NCBI RefSeq assembly: GCF_022539405.1
Contig: NZ_CP054394.1
Coordinates: 2,426,501-2,490,500 of the forward strand
Direction: 5' to 3'
DNA length: 64,000 nt
Origin: Natranaerofaba carboxydovora
GTDB lineage: Bacteria; Bacillota; Natranaerobiia; Natranaerobiales; Natranaerofabaceae
Shown: positions 37,495 to 57,199 of the stretch, one piece after another
Position numbering within the stretch: position 1 is the first letter of the stretch
Layout of the letters: each line of letters opens with the position of its first letter
Position numbers and translations under genes: made by a program
Notes under the pieces: model-generated
Seen by the model: the letters and a program-made list of their open reading frames with translations, nothing else
What the model was told of the DNA's origin: nothing
Databases searched by the model: none

Positions 37495-38043
37495 TTAAAC
37501 CTGCTCTCTAATCCATATACTGCTTTTATCATTAGTATCATGCATAACAAAATCAAATTCTCCTAAAAATGGACCACTAAGCTCATCATCACCTTCATAG
37601 TCCACAATATACGTAATTGCTGAAGCCGAATGTCCTAATATTGATATCAAGTTTTCCATTGCTGTTTTTTTAAGCATTTCATATTTAGGTTCTATTTTAA
37701 AGTCGTCAATGTATAGTATCCCTGATTTTAAAGCATACTCTTCTTTTATAGGACCATTTTTATCTACTAAAAATGATACTGCCCATAAAGAATCTCCGTC
37801 AATTTCATCCGCTAAATCTAAAATATCTAAAGGGGTATCATCTAAAACATTATAATATGGAAAGAAGTAGCACCTAAAGCTACCGATTTCAAAGGTTTCA
37901 ATCTCATCAGTTACCTCATCTTCTCTCATTACAGGTTTTTCAGCAACAAACTTGCCGATGTGAGTTATTGCTTTTAAATCTGTTAAGTTTGAGCGGGTCT
38001 CAAGGTCAATATAAATAAGGTCAATAATTTCTTCTAAGCTCAT
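37495..38043 (-). CDS. hypothetical protein downstream of ImmA remnant
   Basis: 182 residues, acidic, no recognised motif. It starts MSLEEIIDLIYIDLETRSNL and contains several short strand-like stretches (SFRCYFFPYYNVL, SAITYIVDYEGDDELSG). The start overlaps the ImmA-like ORF by 4 nt, so the two were one operon. It may be the cognate substrate or target protein of the peptidase. Unknown function. Confidence 0.55.
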   Translation of the reverse strand: MSLEEIIDLIYIDLETRSNLTDLKAITHIGKFVAEKPVMREDEVTDEIETFEIGSFRCYFFPYYNVLDDTPLDILDLADEIDGDSLWAVSFLVDKNGPIKEEYALKSGILYIDDFKIEPKYEMLKKTAMENLISILGHSASAITYIVDYEGDDELSGPFLGEFDFVMHDTNDKSSIWIREQV

Positions 38044-38255
38044 AATTCTGCCTCCTTATAAAGAAACACAACTTTTCCCGTGTAATAATACAAATTTAAT
38101 TCAGCAGCAATTTCATTACAGAATTGTTCCGTAAAGTCATCCGCCGGGAGCATCTGGCAAAGGTCAAAGGCTGCACTTCTGCCAACAAAAATATGGGCTA
38201 GTTCATGAACCAGGGTAAACATTCTTGCCGCTTTAACATCTCTTTTACTTACAAG
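38040..38255 (-). pseudogene. ImmA/IrrE-type metallopeptidase, N-terminus lost
   Basis: The zinc motif HELAH sits in FTLVHELAHIFVG, preceded in frame by SKRDVKAARM, as in the XRE/ImmA family, but a TAG (38258-38256) cuts the frame just before. The remaining ORF from ATG 38222 is 60 codons with a later acidic segment (NEIAAELNLY). ImmA peptidases cleave repressors. Only the catalytic core remains, so it is probably inactive or a remnant. Confidence 0.6.
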
Positions 38256-38853: not shown

Positions 38854-39024
38854 CTAACTCTCCTGCTCAGAAACCTCTTCTTTGGTTAGGCCAGTTATTT
38901 CTATTATCTCATTTATTTTATAACCTTTTTCCAACATTTGTTTAGCTATCTCTTTTTTTCCTTCTTCTCTACCTTTTTCTTTACCACGTTTCTCCCATGA
39001 TGTAACTAACTTTTCTTTTTTCAA
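38854..39024 (-). CDS. stand-alone Rpn-like C-terminal tail (locus 1)
   Basis: 56 residues from TTG 39024, with AGAGG 9 nt upstream. The sequence (KLVTSWEKRGKEKGREEG, then EIAKQMLEKGYKINEI, GLTKEEVSE) duplicates the tail of the adjacent upstream gene. E. coli Rpn proteins carry intragenic short forms that bind and inhibit the nuclease; this separate tail looks like a permanent version of such a product. It lies directly downstream of the truncated Rpn-like gene (39026-39462). Confidence 0.6.
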   Translation of the reverse strand: MKKEKLVTSWEKRGKEKGREEGKKEIAKQMLEKGYKINEIIEITGLTKEEVSEQES

Positions 39025-39025
39025 G

Positions 39026-39462
39026 TTAATTAACCTCTTTTCTAATCTTCTCAACTTCTTCTTTAGTTAGGCCAGTATGTTTTATTATTTTCGCTATATC
39101 TTCCCCATCAGCTAACATGCTCTTAGCTATCTCTTTTTTTCCTTCTTCTCTACCTTCTTCTCTGCCTTCTTCTCTACCGCGTTTCTCCCAAGATGTTACT
39201 AATTTTTCCAACTTGCTCACCTCCCCTGGTGGAAGTTCTTCTGATAGTTCTTCTTTAATCTTTTCTTCTTCTTCAGGTTCTAAACCAATATATGCATCCA
39301 TGAAAGTGACTAGAATTTCCATTCTTGCTTCATCAATCTCTAGCTTAAGCATCATTCGCAAGAATTCTTTTTTGACCTGTTTCTTTTCCTCTTCGGTGTA
39401 ATCCATTTTACTCATTAGTGCTGCCACTACAGGGTTTTCTCTTCTTAGGTATTCTTTCCAGT
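39026..39462 (-). pseudogene. Rpn-like gene truncated at its 5' side by TnpB element
   Basis: The ORF from ATG 39427 reads AALMSKMDYTEEEKKQVKKE, FLRMMLKLEIDEARMEIL and an acidic stretch, then the coiled tail LEKLVTSWEKRGREEGREEG. The frame continues upstream (HWKEYLRRENPVVA) to 39463 and stops exactly where IS200/IS605 sequence begins. The PD-(D/E)XK nuclease part, usual for the Rpn/DUF4351 family, is missing. The paralogue at 52300-52899 shows the same downstream half. Confidence 0.65.
39209..39226 (-). promoter_or_regulatory. internal ribosome site for the Rpn tail (locus 1)
   Basis: GGGGAGGTG lies 6-7 nt before an in-frame TTG at 39211 inside the Rpn-like gene. Initiation there would give a 61-residue tail protein starting LEKLVTSWEKRG (Leu read as Met). 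Confidence 0.5.
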
Positions 39463-39469
39463 GAACTAC

Positions 39470-39700
39470 TCACGACTAAAGTCGCGAGCTTCTAGCCGCC
39501 CCCAAACTGTTCAGGATGCGCCAGCATACAAATCGCAACCTAGCAGAAGGGGAATACTATACGGGTATCCTATATCCCGGGTATGCCGCCAGTTAAAGAT
39601 ATAAGAGTTCCCATATAGCCAACTATAGCGGGTTCACAGAAGCCGCATAGTACATATACAGCATATAGCTATATACGTTACCTCATATTGCTATGAAGTT
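39470..39700 (-). ncRNA. probable omegaRNA of TnpB element
   Basis: About 220 nt between the tnpB stop and the right end, slightly overlapping the gene end. TnpB guide RNAs occupy this position. Visible pairs include CCCGGGATATAGGATACCCG and the terminal CTCGCGACTTTAGTCGTGAG hairpin. The guide would be the flanking Rpn-like sequence. Confidence 0.5.
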
Positions 39701-41113
39701 TTGGTTTCTAAGTTTGGCCTTGCGCTCTTTGACATCTTTTTTATTTATTCTTGGAAAAACCCTATAGAATTTACGATGAAGATTCATGCTTCCGTTAAAA
39801 TCAGCGTTTAAAATCTTTCCATCTTCAAAGATAATCAGGCTACAGCCATTACCTGTAAGCGAAAACCTTTCGCCTACTTGTTTATCTTTATAATGAATCT
39901 GTGAAGTCATAAAAGCGCTTCTTTCTGTGACATAGATCTTTTCATGGTAAGCTTTGTACCTTGTGTATTTGATGATTTTTCCGTGTAGCCAGTAGTTACG
40001 TTTTAGATTCATTTTCTTTGCTTTGGATGCGCCTTTTTTCTGCTTGAAGCTTTTTAAGTGTTCGAAGATGACAACTTCAACGCCGTACTCTTTTGCCAGC
40101 TCAACGATTCTTGCGCTAACTTTATGAGCTGTGTCTTTATTCAAGTTTGAAGTATAGTCCCAAAGCTTTTTATTGGACTTCTCGCTTTTTACAGGCTTAC
40201 CGCTTAGTCTTTGCTTTTTCGTGATCTTTTGAAGTGCCTGGTATCTTAGGCAATTTACCTTTTTACCGGATATGAACTCTGTTTTAAGTAGCTTATAGCT
40301 CTGTTTGATAGTTATTACAGCTAAATGACTTATTCCCAAATCTATCGCCATTGTAATAAGCTCTGGTTTATCTTTTAGGTAAGTCTTTAGCTTTTTCATG
40401 TTGATTTTCTTTTTAAACGGGAAGCATAAATACCACTCGCCTTTTTTGAAAGACAGAGATGGCGAACACATTTTGTAGTAAGGGTTTGTCCCAAACGTGT
40501 CTTTTATAATCTCTTTAATTTCCTGTTTAGAGTAGCCATTAGCTTTAAGTTTACTTCTAAGCTCTTTCTTTTGAGCTTCGATTTCCTGGTGCTTAAAGTG
40601 GTCTTTGTGCATCCTGTTAAACTGTTCTGTTAGCTTAGTTGGATAATTAACCATACTCCACTTATTGCCGTCAAACACTCTAAGTTTTATAAACTGGTTC
40701 TGAATATCTTCGAACTCCAGGCTAAAGTCATTATTGTAAAAAGTAGGACTCATGTTTGGCTTTGGAAGCCTGGGAGCATTTTTGTTTTTGTTTTTGAGCC
40801 AGTTATTGTAGTTTGACCTGTAGCTGTTCATTTTGCCTATGGCGTGGTTAATGATGCTTCTCTTTAGTACAGAAGGCGGTACATTGTGTTTTTCATTTAG
40901 CGGAATTTCGGGCTCCGGGTTATCCCTTGTTCTTATGGTAAGCCGCTCCAACTCTCTCATCGGAAACTTGTAATCTAATATTTCCATGTTGTCGGCAATA
41001 ACGTCTATATAGAATGACAGCAATTTGTTGATCTCGTCTTTAGTTTTTTGCAGGTTTTCGAGCTTTCCCATATTTGGATCTATTATTTTTAGCTTGATAG
41101 TTTTAGTAGCCAC
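39683..41113 (-). CDS. tnpB: TnpB RNA-guided nuclease (zinc-ribbon cysteines lost)
   Basis: About 476 residues. RuvC residues are intact: AIDLGISHLAV (Asp), VVIFEHLKS (Glu) and KILNADFNGSMNL (Asp). The ribbon between the second and third motif, usually with four Cys, reads TSQIHYKDKQVGERF and GNGCSLII and keeps only one Cys. The N-terminal half is basic and helical. TnpB cuts DNA beside a transposon-specific motif, guided by omegaRNA. I favour GTG 41113, with GTGAGGAG upstream; ATG 41134 has no SD. Confidence 0.85.
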   Translation of the reverse strand: MATKTIKLKIIDPNMGKLENLQKTKDEINKLLSFYIDVIADNMEILDYKFPMRELERLTIRTRDNPEPEIPLNEKHNVPPSVLKRSIINHAIGKMNSYRSNYNNWLKNKNKNAPRLPKPNMSPTFYNNDFSLEFEDIQNQFIKLRVFDGNKWSMVNYPTKLTEQFNRMHKDHFKHQEIEAQKKELRSKLKANGYSKQEIKEIIKDTFGTNPYYKMCSPSLSFKKGEWYLCFPFKKKINMKKLKTYLKDKPELITMAIDLGISHLAVITIKQSYKLLKTEFISGKKVNCLRYQALQKITKKQRLSGKPVKSEKSNKKLWDYTSNLNKDTAHKVSARIVELAKEYGVEVVIFEHLKSFKQKKGASKAKKMNLKRNYWLHGKIIKYTRYKAYHEKIYVTERSAFMTSQIHYKDKQVGERFSLTGNGCSLIIFEDGKILNADFNGSMNLHRKFYRVFPRINKKDVKERKAKLRNQNFIAI

Positions 41114-41246
41114 GAACTCCTCACCCTTTAACATTTAATCTTGAAGCATTCTTTCATATTGGAGAGTCAGTATGATAGGCTCTAACTCATGACTAAAGTC
41201 ACAAGTATGTGAGCCGTTTGTAATCAAAATTGGCGGGTTTTGAATA

Positions 41247-49286: not shown

Positions 49287-49315
49287 GGAAACAGCGGAAC
49301 CGGTCTACTGCTTCC
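49287..49315. repeat. REP-like sequence at the end of surface pseudogene
   Basis: GGAAACAGCGGAACCGGT then CTACTGCTTCC, a diverged member of the RAYT-linked palindrome family. Confidence 0.5.
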
Positions 49316-51286
49316 TACATCTCTACAGTTATCTCCTCTTCGTCTTCGTCCCATTCTACATCTGCACCAAAGGCTTCTGCGAAGAATCTAAAGGGTATCA
49401 TGGTTCTATCAGAGTCTTCATCTATATATGGCTCACTATCTAACTCATGGGGTTCATCATCAATATAGGCTGTTATTTCGTCTATAAATAACATTACTTC
49501 TGTTCCTTCGTATTCTGCTTCTACTGCTCTTTTGTCACTGTCCCATTCTACGTCAACACCAAGTAGTTCGCCGATTATTCTAAATGGCAGATAGGTACGG
49601 TTATCTTCTTCTCTTATTACAGGGGCTGCGTCTATCATCATATCATCACCATCGACGTATGCTACCTGGCTTCCTATGCTTACTACTATCTCTGTATCTT
49701 CATCATCTTCAAAGTTTAAGGTAATATCTTTACTTATACCCACATCTGTGTAGATGGTCACAGATGTTTGTGGCACTTGACGGATCAAGATCTAGTTCTA
49801 TTCTTTCTACGTCATCTCTAGAGGTAACTGTAAATTCTACCTCATCGATTTCACCTTCATCACTAGGACCTCTGTATGCTGTAACTTCTACATCACCAGT
49901 GGCATTTGTTACAACGTTAAATTCTACATCTCCGTTAGATGGATAGGCTCCAATAACCCATTCTTCATCGCCTTCTTCGCCATCTAAAACTCTACCATAA
50001 TCTTCGTCAATGTCAACTACAGATGCATCTCCATCGAAGTGAAGCTCAAATACTACAGCTCCGTGGTCGTCATAATTAACTCTTGTTCCATCAGTTGTAC
50101 GGAAACGCATTTCAAACTCGTTATCATCGCCAAGTTCTACTTCATCATCGTAGTCTCTTTCTTATACTGCTTGCAGATGCACTATAGCGAGCACTTTCAA
50201 AGTCAACTACTTCTACTGAACCTCCATCACTATCATCTTCACTTGTAACATAGTAGTCAAAAGTATCTCCAATATCCTGATCTCTGTCAATATCAACTTC
50301 AAATGTTACTTGAGTTTTTTCGCCACCCTCAAGGGTTACTTCTTCTGTTTGATCAGCATCCCCATCATCATCATCCTGGTCCCAATAGAATTCTATATCC
50401 TGTGTCGCTTCATTTGTGCCTTCATTTGCTACATCTACAACTGCCTCGAAAGTGCTTCCTTGCATGACTGTATCTGATGTTTCATCTCATTGATATCAAC
50501 TTGGAAGTCAACTTCTTCAGGTGCTACTGTTGATAGTTCTACATCATTACTTGAAATATCTGCACCTACAAAAGCAGCACTTTCTGCATTAAAAGATTCA
50601 GTAGTTTCTTCTGTTATTCTCCCTTGGAATGAAATTACTAAAGTGTTGTCATCAATTACCTCAAAATCGATATCACCAGAGCCATCGTCTAGCCCAAAAC
50701 TGTCTGCTATGTTAGTTAAATCAGGGTTGTAATTCGATTCGTCTCTCGCTCCACTTGCAAATTCGTCGTTATTAACTGTCAATTCTATTGAAGGATCCCA
50801 TGTGCCATAGGTAAATTCACTATCATCAATTTCTATTCCAAATACATTTACTATTTCTGTTTCAGAGTGACTAAAGCGACCTATATGAGTATCAAACTCT
50901 ACTGTCACGGTAAGCTCATGTTCGCCAGCTATATTTTCCTCTGCATCTTGATCATCATTTAACCAAAAGTCGTCTGGATCATAAGTTCCACCTGAAATTG
51001 AAGCATAATCAAAACTGTAAACTTCTCCAACAATGTCTGACTCTATTGTTACTTCCACATCATCTTTATCAAAGCTATCATACGAACCACCTGTAACTGA
51101 GTTTTCATATGCAATATTACTTACACTTAAGTCATCAATTTCTTCTTCAGTATGGTAGTAGTCATCTACATTAATGTCAAATTCTTCGCTAGCAACTTCC
51201 TGTCCCATCGCTACCCCACTAAATAGGGTAAATACCATAGCTAGTGCGATTAAAAGTGAAATAGATTTTCTCGTTGTTTTTTTCAT
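49315..51286 (-). pseudogene. surface protein split by three frameshifts
   Basis: Four overlapping frames together make one acidic secreted protein of about 650 residues. The signal peptide MKKTTRKSISLLIALAM is almost identical to that of the gene starting at 59770. Frame breaks lie near 50480 (AATGAGATGAA, dinucleotide slip), 50150 (in an AAGAAAGAGA run) and 49755-49775. The domain YSASASSI...DYDDEVELGDDNEFEM recurs elsewhere in the window. The C-terminal two stalk units are nearly identical to those of 55001-57199. ATG 51286 has AAGGAGGG. The gene is broken unless frames are joined by recoding or the sequence has errors. Confidence 0.75.
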
Positions 51287-51501
51287 GTAATCTTTTCCCT
51301 CCTTCAAATTGTCTTACTAAACTACTTAAATAAATTACGTTCTTACTAATACTTTCTTTTGTTTGTCAACAAACAAAAGCCTTTTTCAAGGTATAAACTT
51401 CAATTGGTCGACCAAAACTAATTGGTGTAAGATACCTTTTTCCTTAGTAACTCTGGTTGGAAAGTGTTCTTGACCCCTGCTCTTTTTACCACCCCCTAAA
51501 G
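51287..51501 (-). promoter_or_regulatory. conserved 5' leader shared with the 59770 gene (copy 1)
   Basis: About 215 nt, alignable almost base for base with 59771-59987. Conserved elements are an 11-bp inverted repeat CTTTTGTTTGT (51356-51366 with 51369-51379) and the palindrome TTGGTCGACCAA (51404-51415). Confidence 0.6.
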
Positions 51502-51653: not shown

Positions 51654-51942
51654 AGCGAAGAAACTACATTTAATTCCACTTGCCATTTTTTTATCTAGAT
51701 TAAATCAGATTATTTCCATTTAATTTTTTTCACTCTAAATATATCAAAGCACTATTTATTCTATTTACTTTGAATATATCAACTATTAATAAAGCTTCTT
51801 TTTATTAATCACTATAAATTTACAGTACATTTGTTCTATCTATTTTAATTTAAAGCAGCTATTTTTTAAGCTACTAAAAACTTACTTCTTTTTTCAGAGC
51901 TAGTTAATGAATCGGTTACACTTAACTAGACAAATAAACAAA
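51654..51942. other. AT-rich gap, nothing recognised
   Basis: No credible ORF, RNA gene or strong hairpin on either strand. Confidence 0.5.
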
Positions 51943-51971
51943 TAAAAACCCCGGCCAATATGATGCCGGGA
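51943..51971 (-). terminator. terminator after Rpn-like tail gene (locus 2)
   Basis: CCCGG, 11-nt loop, CCGGG, then GTTTTTATTTG on the minus strand. Confidence 0.75.
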
Positions 51972-51999
51972 CCAGAACTTCTTATTTTTTTACGCTTTT

Positions 52000-52284
52000 T
52001 TATTTTTTTAATTTTTCTATTACGTTTAACAACTCTTTTTCTGTTTCAAGGTTAATCAGTTTGACTACTATTTCCTCTAGCTTCTCTTTTTGAGATATGC
52101 CTTTGATTTTTTCCTCAGTAGAGTCTTTAATAGAACCAAATTTTTGTTTAGCCTGGTTTATAATTACTGTTTTTAAAGCATTTAATTCTCCTTCTGCTTT
52201 GCCTTCTGCTTTGCCTTTCTCTATGCCTTCTTTTCTGCCTTCTTCTCTACCTTTTCTTTCCCACGAAGTCATTAATTTTTCCAA
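52000..52284 (-). CDS. stand-alone Rpn-like C-terminal tail (locus 2)
   Basis: 94 residues from TTG 52284 (AGGGG 8 nt upstream; in-frame GTG 52293 also possible). LEKLMTSWERKGREEG, an extended EG(K/A)AEG repeat, NALKTVIINQAKQKFGSI and STEEKIKGISQKEKLEEIV copy the tail of the upstream gene with more repeat units. It is parallel to 38854-39024 at locus 1. Possible antitoxin-like regulator of Rpn nucleases. Confidence 0.65.
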   Translation of the reverse strand: MEKLMTSWERKGREEGRKEGIEKGKAEGKAEGELNALKTVIINQAKQKFGSIKDSTEEKIKGISQKEKLEEIVVKLINLETEKELLNVIEKLKK

Positions 52285-52299
52285 CTTCTTCACCCCTGC

Positions 52300-52899
52300 T
52301 TATTCTGTTTCTAAAATCTTTATCAGCTCTTTTTCTGAGTCTAACTTTATAATCTTATTTACTACTTCCTCCAGTTTTTCCTTTTGAGATATATTATTGA
52401 TTTTTTCCTCTGTAGAGCCTTCAATAGAGCCAAATTTTTGATTAGCCAGATTTATGATTACTGTCTTTAGAGCATTTACTTCGCCTTCTGCTTTGCCTTC
52501 TGCTTTGCCTTCTTCCCTACCTTTTCTTTCCCACGAAGTCATTAATTTTTCCAACTTCTCCACCTCCTTTTCAGGGAGTTCTTCTTCAAGGTCTTCAATA
52601 ACCGCCTCTTCTTCTTCGGGTGGTAGCTTTAAATAATTATCCATAAAAGTTGTTAATATTTCAGCTTTTGCTTCGTCTAGCTCTAGTTTTAGGAGCATCC
52701 TAAAGAACTCTTTCTTTACCTGTTTTCTTTCTTCTTTATTATAATCCATTTTGCAAAGAAGTGCAGCTACAGCAGGGTTTTCCTTCTTTAAATATTCTCT
52801 CCAATTCTTGCGTTTTAAATGAAGCTGTAAAAAATTAAAATCTACTACGTTATGAAAGGGGAAGTCTATACTATAATTATCTTTCGTCTTATTTTTCAT
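52300..52899 (-). CDS. Rpn/DUF4351-family protein lacking the nuclease domain
   Basis: 199 residues. After a short odd start (KNKTKDNYSIDFPFHNVVDF) it goes directly into the family's C-terminal half: NWREYLKKENPAVAALL, a helical middle and the coiled repeat tail. The PD-(D/E)XK nuclease domain normally preceding this is missing, as if deleted internally. It contains an internal SD plus TTG for the tail (52554). Likely not a nuclease; could be a decoy or antitoxin remnant. The start ATG 52899 has a weak SD. Confidence 0.65.
   Translation of the reverse strand: MKNKTKDNYSIDFPFHNVVDFNFLQLHLKRKNWREYLKKENPAVAALLCKMDYNKEERKQVKKEFFRMLLKLELDEAKAEILTTFMDNYLKLPPEEEEAVIEDLEEELPEKEVEKLEKLMTSWERKGREEGKAEGKAEGEVNALKTVIINLANQKFGSIEGSTEEKINNISQKEKLEEVVNKIIKLDSEKELIKILETE
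52552..52569 (-). promoter_or_regulatory. internal ribosome site for the Rpn tail (locus 2)
   Basis: AAGGAGGTG, fully complementary to the 16S anti-SD, lies 8 nt before an in-frame TTG at 52554. Initiation would give an 84-residue tail product. Confidence 0.55.
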
Positions 52900-53128: not shown

Positions 53129-53476
53129 ATGTATGAAATAATATATTATGAAAGTTTTAGTGAAAATCCTGTAATAGACTTTATAAGTAATCAATATCCA
53201 AAAGAACAGGCTAAAATCTTAAGAGAAATAGATTTGCTTCAAACTTTTGGGATTTCACTGGGTATGCCGCATCTTAGAAAAATTAAAAATACTGAACTCT
53301 GGGAATTAAGAATTATTCATGGTAATAATATATTCAGGATACTTTTCAAAGATTTAGACAAGAGTACCTATCTGTTACTTCATGGGTTTCAAAAAAAACA
53401 AGATAAAACCCCAAAAAAAGAAATTGATATAGCTTTAAAAAGATTGAAAGAATATTTAGAAGGTGGTGATAGATAA
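53129..53476 (+). CDS. higB: HigB/Gp49-type toxin
   Basis: 115 residues of the phage-derived Gp49/RelE superfamily: a YEIIYYESFSENPVIDFI start, GMPHLRKIKNTELWELRI and NNIFRILFKD, then a helical C-terminus. Such toxins cleave mRNA on the ribosome. It overlaps the antitoxin gene by one nt (TAATG). Toxin-first order is usual for HigBA. Confidence 0.88.
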   Translation: MYEIIYYESFSENPVIDFISNQYPKEQAKILREIDLLQTFGISLGMPHLRKIKNTELWELRIIHGNNIFRILFKDLDKSTYLLLHGFQKKQDKTPKKEIDIALKRLKEYLEGGDR

Positions 53477-53745
53477 TGAAACATGAAGAAGCAAAGAAAA
53501 AGTTATTAGAAAATCCTGAAGTAAAAAGAGAGTACGATGAACTAGAATATCTTTATGAAATTAAAGAGCAAATTATAAAGATACGCAACGAAAAGGGGCT
53601 TAGCCAAAAAGAGTTAGCTGAAATCTTAGGAACCAAGCAATCTGCAATTTCCAGGCTAGAGAATGATATGTATAATCCCACTGTAGAATTTTTAAATAAA
53701 ATCGCTAAAGCCTGTGATAAAGAACTTGAAATTAATTTTAAGTAG
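53476..53745 (+). CDS. higA: HigA-type XRE antitoxin
   Basis: 89 residues with an N-terminal helical arm and the HTH: IRNEKGLSQKELAEILGTKQ, then SAISRLENDMYNPTVEFL. It would bind HigB and the palindrome at 53066-53084. A terminator begins at its stop codon. Confidence 0.9.
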   Translation: MKHEEAKKKLLENPEVKREYDELEYLYEIKEQIIKIRNEKGLSQKELAEILGTKQSAISRLENDMYNPTVEFLNKIAKACDKELEINFK

Positions 53746-55000: not shown

Positions 55001-57199
55001 CTACATCTCTACAGTTATCTCCTCTTCGTCTTCGTCCCATTCTACATCTGCACCAAAGGCTTCTGCGAAGAATCTAAAGGGTATCATGGTTCTGTCAGAG
55101 TCTTCGTCAATATATGGCTCTCCGTCTAGTTCGTAGGGTTCATCATCAATATAGGCTGTTATTTCGTCTATAAATAACATTACTTCTGTTCCTTCGTATT
55201 CTGCTTCTACTGCTCTTTTGTCACCGTCCCATTCTACATCAACACCAAGTATTTCACCTACGATTCTGAAAGGTAAGAATGTCCTATCATTTACAATTGT
55301 AGGGGATACATCCATACTTACTTCCTCTCCATCAACTATAGCTTTTTTGTCATCTATGGTCATTATTACTTTTTGGGGTGTTAGTTCTTCGAATACTATA
55401 TCAAAGGTTTTACTAAGGCCAAAGTCAGTAAAAAGATCAACAGTATACTCGCCGTAGTCATCTGCTTCTACCTGGAAGGAGGCTTTGCCGTATTCAAAGT
55501 CTTGTTTGTCTAGGATTTCTAGGCCATCGGTATCAAGGATTTCATATTCCACGTCTTCGACAAATTCTTCAGGGTATTCGGTATCATCTTCTGTGTAGGT
55601 TTCGAATTCGCCGGGTATTGCTCTGATACCGTTAGAGTCAAGCATAGTTAGGATAACTTCGCCATCTAGCTCTCCGGGTTCTATCTTCTTGGTTATTTCT
55701 ATCTCATCAGGTTCTCCTGATAGATACAGGGTTTTGGAGTCTTCTAAGTCTTTTTCAGCGTGGCGAGCTCTTATTTCGGTTTCGCCGGTGGACCTTGGAG
55801 TTATCTGTCCGGTACTGCTGTTAATTGATGCTGTGGAGGTGCTAGAGGAGGCAAAATAGATGTCGTCGTCAGTGGTATCATACTCGATTCTTACTCCATC
55901 TTCATCGATTAGGTATACTTTTGCTTTGTCTTCTTCATAGTATTCAAAGTTATAGCTGTCATCACCGGCAGTGAAATTTCTCATTACCTTGTTATCTAAT
56001 TCTAATTCTATGTCTTCTATCTCACCGAATTCGGTTACATTTACATAGGTTTCATCTCTCATTGCAGTGCCGGATATTTCTCCTCTTACTTCCCATTCTC
56101 CAAGTTCATCAAAATCTATATCTGCAAACATTGCTTCGTTATCAGGACAGTATTCTATATCCCGGCCGGAGTATTCTGTTTCTTCACCGTCAGGGTTATA
56201 TGCTGTAATTTCTATTCTTTCTGTGTAGTCATATTCTTCTCTTGTTTGTCTAGAGAAGTTTTCGAAATTCGCAAGGCCATGTTCATAATCTTTATTTATA
56301 TTACCATATTCATCCATAATTCTAAAGTATATTTTTTGTTCACCTTCTGTTATGTTTATTTCATCATCCAAAGCTGTTATAGTGTCTAAGTCTGATGCGG
56401 CTACTACTGTGATTGATTTTTTTACGTAACCTCTCTCAGCGTCTCCTACTGCAGCGGTGTATTCATATGCACCGGCTTTTTCTGTTTCCACTGAAAGTTC
56501 TGCCACCCCGTCCCGGTCGGTTTCTACTGTGTCAAGTTCGTTCCAGCTAGATTCACCTTCTTCTCGCTGATAAAAAGTCACTTCCATGTTCCTTAGCCTG
56601 GGGCCGTCCTCGTATTCTCTTACCGTTGCTGTAAGATCGTAAATTTCCCCCGCTTCAACCAGGTCATCAGAGATCTCTAGGTCATAGCTTTCTGCGTCTA
56701 ATTCGGCCACTTCTATGCTAACGTTGCCGCCGTAATCACTTCCCATAAACATGTCTACTACCTGGTCATTGTCTTTTTCTTTGCCGATGTAAAATTCAAC
56801 TTCGCCGGGGTCATTTGTTTCTACCCATATGGAGATGTATCTACCATCAACGAAATCGGCATCAGGGTCATCTGTCTCTATTCGCCAGATGTTATCTCCC
56901 TGGTAATCGACTTGGTAGTTTCTTTCTTCGTGGTAGTAAAGGTCAATATCATCACTGTCTCTACTTGATTCGATATAGAAGTAAACATGGTTTTCTTCGC
57001 CTATATAATCTCCGTCTTCATTTTTTAATACAAATTCTATCTCGGCTCTTTCATCTTCTGCCGGGTCTAGTTCTTCGTCGTAGTAGATTACTCCGCTTTT
57101 GTCTCTGTCTAGGTCATCTTGGGCATAGGAATAGACTGTAGTGCTAAAAAGTGTTACTGCCAGGATAATAATTAAGGTTAAGTGTGCTTTTTGTTTCAT
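55001..57199 (-). CDS. large secreted Ig-like/stalk-domain surface protein
   Basis: 732 residues. Signal peptide LIIILAVTLFSTTVYSYA, then several beta-rich Ig-like domains (YDLTATVREYEDGPRLR, AELSVETEKAGAYEY, DEYGNINKDYEHG), and a BIG-like domain with SINSSTGQITPRSTGETEIRA split over its motif. The C-terminal two stalk units (DRTFLPFRIVGEILGVDVEW; DRTMIPFRFFAEAFGADVEW) are near-identical to those in 49315-51286. Very acidic. Likely S-layer-like or adhesive; no SLH or LPXTG anchor is seen. Confidence 0.87.
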   Translation of the reverse strand: MKQKAHLTLIIILAVTLFSTTVYSYAQDDLDRDKSGVIYYDEELDPAEDERAEIEFVLKNEDGDYIGEENHVYFYIESSRDSDDIDLYYHEERNYQVDYQGDNIWRIETDDPDADFVDGRYISIWVETNDPGEVEFYIGKEKDNDQVVDMFMGSDYGGNVSIEVAELDAESYDLEISDDLVEAGEIYDLTATVREYEDGPRLRNMEVTFYQREEGESSWNELDTVETDRDGVAELSVETEKAGAYEYTAAVGDAERGYVKKSITVVAASDLDTITALDDEINITEGEQKIYFRIMDEYGNINKDYEHGLANFENFSRQTREEYDYTERIEITAYNPDGEETEYSGRDIEYCPDNEAMFADIDFDELGEWEVRGEISGTAMRDETYVNVTEFGEIEDIELELDNKVMRNFTAGDDSYNFEYYEEDKAKVYLIDEDGVRIEYDTTDDDIYFASSSTSTASINSSTGQITPRSTGETEIRARHAEKDLEDSKTLYLSGEPDEIEITKKIEPGELDGEVILTMLDSNGIRAIPGEFETYTEDDTEYPEEFVEDVEYEILDTDGLEILDKQDFEYGKASFQVEADDYGEYTVDLFTDFGLSKTFDIVFEELTPQKVIMTIDDKKAIVDGEEVSMDVSPTIVNDRTFLPFRIVGEILGVDVEWDGDKRAVEAEYEGTEVMLFIDEITAYIDDEPYELDGEPYIDEDSDRTMIPFRFFAEAFGADVEWDEDEEEITVEM

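Follow-up and report, generated by a model that had tools for sequence, protein, structure and literature searches.

Rpn remnants and stand-alone tails at two loci of the window

The window is a 64,000-nucleotide stretch of Natranaerofaba carboxydovora DNA (contig NZ_CP054394.1, positions 2,426,501 to 2,490,500), and it holds two Rpn-like loci of the same layout. At each, a gene remnant with an internal Shine-Dalgarno (SD) sequence is followed by a stand-alone copy of its tail. The initial annotation described the first remnant and missed both its stand-alone tail copy and the second locus. The features, in window coordinates, are:

52300-52899, minus strand: 5'-truncated Rpn remnant of 199 aa, consisting of a middle helical domain and a tail, without the nuclease domain
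52561-52569, minus strand: internal SD AAGGAGGTG, inside ORF 52300-52899
52552-52554, minus strand: internal in-frame TTG, start of an RpnS-like tail (predicted 84-aa product, 52554 to 52300)
52000-52284, minus strand: stand-alone tail copy, 94 aa from a TTG, or 97 aa if GTG 52293 is used
51939-51973, minus strand: terminator-like hairpin and T-rich run after the stand-alone tail (z -1.6, weak)
39026-39463, minus strand: second Rpn remnant, without the nuclease domain, its 5' end abutting an IS605-type element
39218-39226, minus strand: equivalent internal SD GGGGAGGTG, 6 nt before TTG 39211
38854-39024, minus strand: stand-alone copy of the second remnant's tail (TTG start, SD -6.5, dN/dS 0.35)
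39683-41134, minus strand: IS605-type OrfB (TnpB), the element end abutting the second remnant

We compared ORF 52300-52899 with its homologues; of the complete ones in the phylum, most are about 313-333 aa long and begin with a nuclease half (HDRLFKEL...VDILVE...LVHIEPQ...FNERMF). Alignment of the ORF to full-length relatives starts only at about residue 125, just past the end of PD-(D/E)XK, and the nuclease half of about 120 residues is absent. Of the features of the Rpn nuclease family (COG5464, PF04754/TIGR01784), the ORF has the conserved middle domain, at about 40-48% identity to full-length relatives, and the repeat-bearing tail, and it lacks the N-terminal PD-(D/E)XK domain. Searching the 900 nt upstream of either remnant with a nuclease profile made from 84 intact relatives found no match. 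Because the alignment covers only the part past the nuclease and no nuclease lies upstream, we conclude that ORF 52300-52899 is a 5'-truncated Rpn and not a nuclease gene. The tail therefore has nothing in cis to inhibit.

We also considered that the nuclease might be encoded in a different frame or at another place; searching the DNA upstream, the whole window and the genome yielded only a third, broken Rpn. When the nuclease half of a relative served as query, neither the window nor the genome gave another credible match, and no intact Rpn nuclease was found in the genome with this query, TIGR01784 or PF04754; PF12784 was uninformative, as its controls gave no match either. The TIGR01784 and PF04754 genome searches returned two remnants, at 2465 and 2492 kb, and nothing else; they could miss distant Rpn genes, and the locus of ORF 52300-52899 itself was found by protein similarity, not by these two models.

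The AlphaFold model of ORF 52300-52899 is all-helical without strands (mean pLDDT 71.6, pTM 0.45) and contains a long helix at residues 123-156. A PDB sequence search gave no significant match. The DUF4351 family (PF14261) matched both the ORF (13.9 bits) and the stand-alone tail copy 52000-52284 (20.5 bits) below the Pfam gathering cut-off of 25. This copy starts immediately past the ORF's stop codon, shares 77% amino acid identity with the upstream tail and has two more four-residue repeats (dS 0.54, dN 0.12 and dN/dS 0.23 for the pair). Its SD, at -6.6 kcal/mol, is weaker than the internal site at 52554. Promoter consensus matches were many, in AT-rich DNA.

At the second locus, the remnant carries GGGGAGGTGAGCAAGTTG at the same place, the tail boundary, and the tails differ by one repeat net, with one fewer in the stand-alone copy 38854-39024. 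The third Rpn, of the PF04754 subfamily, lies just past the window end (G000:C1:2491723-2492394; L138:1223-1894, minus strand) and has lost part of its nuclease by an internal deletion with a frame change. It has GAGGAGGTGGAAGAAATG at the tail boundary at -12.5 kcal/mol, the next best site in that gene reaching -3.1. Thus, in all three Rpn loci found in the genome, the internal site is kept and the nuclease is broken or gone.

A strong internal ribosome site lies at the tail boundary

The 9-mer AAGGAGGTG in ORF 52300-52899 (52569-52561) ends 6 nt before the TTG at 52554. The 16S-like 3' ends of the genome read GGATCACCTCCTT, so the anti-SD is canonical, and the 9-nt complement reported 8 nt before an in-frame TTG is present as described, the 8 nt being counted from the GGAGG core. 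Initiation at this codon would produce residues 116-199 of the ORF, an 84-aa tail whose predicted mass of about 9 kDa agrees with the product size that had been proposed. The ORF shows two features by which RpnS is recognised: an SD with an in-frame start codon at the tail boundary, and four-residue repeats in the first tail helix whose number varies between tail copies. No structured RNA was found around the SD of TTG 52554 (z 0.2). The ORF's own ATG, at 52899, is essentially without an SD (-0.1 kcal/mol); if the remnant is transcribed, its main product should therefore be the 84-aa tail.

The 9-mer occurs once in the window against 0.6 occurrences expected, and by itself it is not surprising; its placement is. 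Since the 9-mer alone is not rare, we scored every internal in-frame ATG, GTG and TTG in the 46 non-overlapping window ORFs that reach 120 aa or more, 616 sites in all, taking the duplex energy with ACCUCCUU as SD strength. TTG 52554 ranked first at -12.2 kcal/mol. TTG 39211 in the second remnant followed at -11.8, and the third-ranked site reached only -9.3 kcal/mol.

The site could nevertheless be a coincidence, in which Lys-Glu-Val, encoded within a linker rich in Lys and Glu, gives the 9-mer by chance and the TTG is an ordinary leucine codon. Lys and Glu are indeed common at the tail boundary, and the expected count of the 9-mer would allow one chance occurrence. Yet synonymous codon shuffles reached the strength of the site in only 0.8% of cases for ORF 52300-52899 (p = 0.008), in 0.2% for the second locus (p = 0.002) and in under 0.2% (p below 0.002) for the intact close relative L068, which has the same GGGGAGGTGAGTAAGTTG. 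The top two of the 616 internal starts are both Rpn tail boundaries, and the distant subfamily of the third locus also has the site. Synonymous shuffling and the window-wide scan thus strongly disfavour a chance 9-mer, and we consider coincidence very improbable.

The internal site is conserved in relatives

We collected 119 homologues and reduced them to 65 representatives below 80% identity, both window loci included. The best boundary SD and start had a mean of -7.3 kcal/mol, compared with -3.7 kcal/mol for synonymous shuffles within the gene (Wilcoxon p = 2e-7 over the 65 representatives, a pooled value inflated by relatedness). In 34 of the 65 representatives, no site elsewhere in the gene was stronger than the boundary. 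The start codon at the boundary was ATG in 33 of the 65, GTG in 13 and TTG in 6, with none in 13. The site is conserved in Clostridia relatives, the intact L068 among them. Some of the Bacillaceae (Oceanobacillus, Gracilibacillus and some Bacillus) lack it, and it is therefore not universal. The initial annotation had named an SD that is not conserved in relatives as evidence against its proposal; we found instead that the site is conserved beyond amino-acid needs, as judged by the synonymous shuffles. Although relatedness inflates the pooled statistics, the sequence evidence at the window locus stands on its own. We conclude that TTG 52554 is very probably a real internal start of the RpnS type, conserved in relatives.

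The remnants resemble known Rpn gene-within-gene systems

In E. coli, each of the five rpn genes produces RpnS by internal initiation, and RpnS blocks the toxic RpnL (PMC10327210). Like the window ORF, E. coli RpnA-E have an internal SD and start where the middle domain meets the variable tail, four-residue charged/Gly repeats near the tail start and a long first tail helix. In contrast to them, the window locus has no nuclease half, encodes no toxin and uses TTG as its start. The suggestion that the E. coli logic applies here thus holds for the position and form of an RpnS-type internal start, whereas the nuclease target is not encoded at the locus.

The initial annotation pointed to the same logic in a Firmicute. 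A cloned C. difficile rpn gene was already shown in E. coli to produce RpnS from an internal start and ribosome-binding site (PMC10327210), so the extension to Gram-positive bacteria is not new. The C. difficile gene resembles the window locus as a Gram-positive Rpn with an internally initiated tail, the window product being predicted, and differs in yielding a functional-length Rpn together with RpnS where the window locus is a remnant only. Another close comparison is the intact 284-aa protein of L068 (a Syntrophomonadaceae MAG, PWGO01000028.1), whose middle domain is 68% identical in amino acids to that of the window ORF and 88% to that of the second remnant. L068 shares the internal site but retains the nuclease and its own start, and no downstream tail copy was detected there.

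Separate downstream copies are also known, namely ypaA/RpnES and rpnCS, with DUF4351 in some species (PMC10327210). Like the window copy, ypaA and rpnCS are stand-alone tail genes directly downstream of the parent and derived from the parent's own tail; the window parent differs in lacking a nuclease, and its two tails differ in repeat number. Altering the number of four-residue repeats breaks RpnL-RpnS recognition (PMC10327210), so the two tails at each window locus, with their unequal repeats, might not recognise the same partner.

An apparent excess of tails kept where the nuclease is broken

Among the relatives, a downstream tail copy accompanies 18 of 116 loci, and it nearly always starts at the boundary. 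Loss of the internal SD was not tied to such a copy, which was present at 9 of 61 strong-SD and 5 of 33 weak-SD loci. In the first sample, away from contig edges, 17 homologues keep the tail with the nuclease missing, partial or frame-broken; the reverse, an intact nuclease lacking a tail, occurs once (L052). The 17:1 asymmetry departs from the length-based expectation of 0.375 (binomial p = 0.0025, with relatedness uncorrected and several loci from one genome). A further 20 loci brought about five more with the tail kept, and no case of the reverse, giving overall about 20 versus 1. This excess is suggestive only, because frameshifts in these sequences can be sequencing errors.

In L071 (Texcoconibacillus) and L084 (Evansella vedderi), Rpn tails, or units of a tail with a middle domain, form arrays of two to three tandem copies, either inside an rpn locus or downstream of it.

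The internal start may have outlived its toxin

The reading that we hold with good confidence is that the site is the internal RpnS antitoxin start of a formerly intact Rpn gene-within-gene toxin-antitoxin, whose nuclease half has since been deleted while the antitoxin part was retained. In the ancestor, the full ORF would have encoded RpnL, with nuclease, middle domain and tail, and AAGGAGG-TTG would have directed synthesis of the tail alone, which would dimerise through its repeat-bearing helix and block the nuclease. Deletion of the nuclease half would have left a gene whose start lies within the middle domain and lacks a ribosome site. A second tail would then be made from the downstream copy, by the weaker site just past the first stop. 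The missing nuclease, the conserved internal site and the downstream duplicate can be read from the DNA itself; that the locus is transcribed and translated, and that its tails had, or still have, an antitoxin role, we infer.

What was retained is best read as either a still functional solo RpnS or a recent relic. These are sub-questions of the deletion reading, and the relic does not exclude it. We give nearly even chances to a dead, unexpressed fragment in which the site persists only through recent decay. The loss or breakage of the nuclease half in all three loci, the IS element abutting the second locus, the missing SD at the remaining ATG and gene decay nearby are consistent with such a relic, whereas the open frames of the middle domain and both tails and the retention of a strong site at all three loci argue against it. 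So does the low dN/dS of the tail pairs (0.23 and 0.35), though this may predate the nuclease loss. Selective retention of the tails, which would neutralise related Rpn nucleases on mobile DNA or phage, seems unlikely to us. It could account for the asymmetry among non-edge homologues and for the duplicated stand-alone tails, but the same asymmetry would follow equally well if cells died on losing the antitoxin before the toxin, with no later selection. Moreover, some frameshifts may be sequencing errors and relatedness is uncorrected, and cross-protection is limited by the specificity of E. coli RpnS for its cognate RpnL and for the number of repeats (PMC10327210). A broader version, that all Rpn loci of this genome are now solo antitoxins, with the nuclease lost, the start kept and the tail duplicated at two of them, and form an anti-Rpn immunity set against incoming Rpn nucleases, is less likely still.

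Sequence by itself shows the RpnS internal start to be a conserved, selected element of many Gram-positive Rpn genes rather than an E. coli peculiarity, and one that can outlive its toxin. The apparent excess of remnants with a broken toxin and a kept antitoxin agrees with the prediction from gene-within-gene toxin-antitoxin organisation, and offers a test of that model over many genomes.

Other genes near the two loci

Divergent from the first Rpn remnant is a HigB/HigA-like toxin-antitoxin pair (Gp49/DUF891 and HTH_3; 53129-53745, plus strand). By eye, four overlapping-frame ORFs at 49315-51307 (minus strand) resemble pieces of one decayed surface protein, and the intact gene 55001-57199 (minus strand) shares its end almost exactly. 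Near the second locus, 37495-38222 (minus strand) contains a short ORF with HELAH, metallopeptidase-like in the ImmA/IrrE style by eye, beside a 182-aa ORF. Neither of these two ORFs had a Pfam match.
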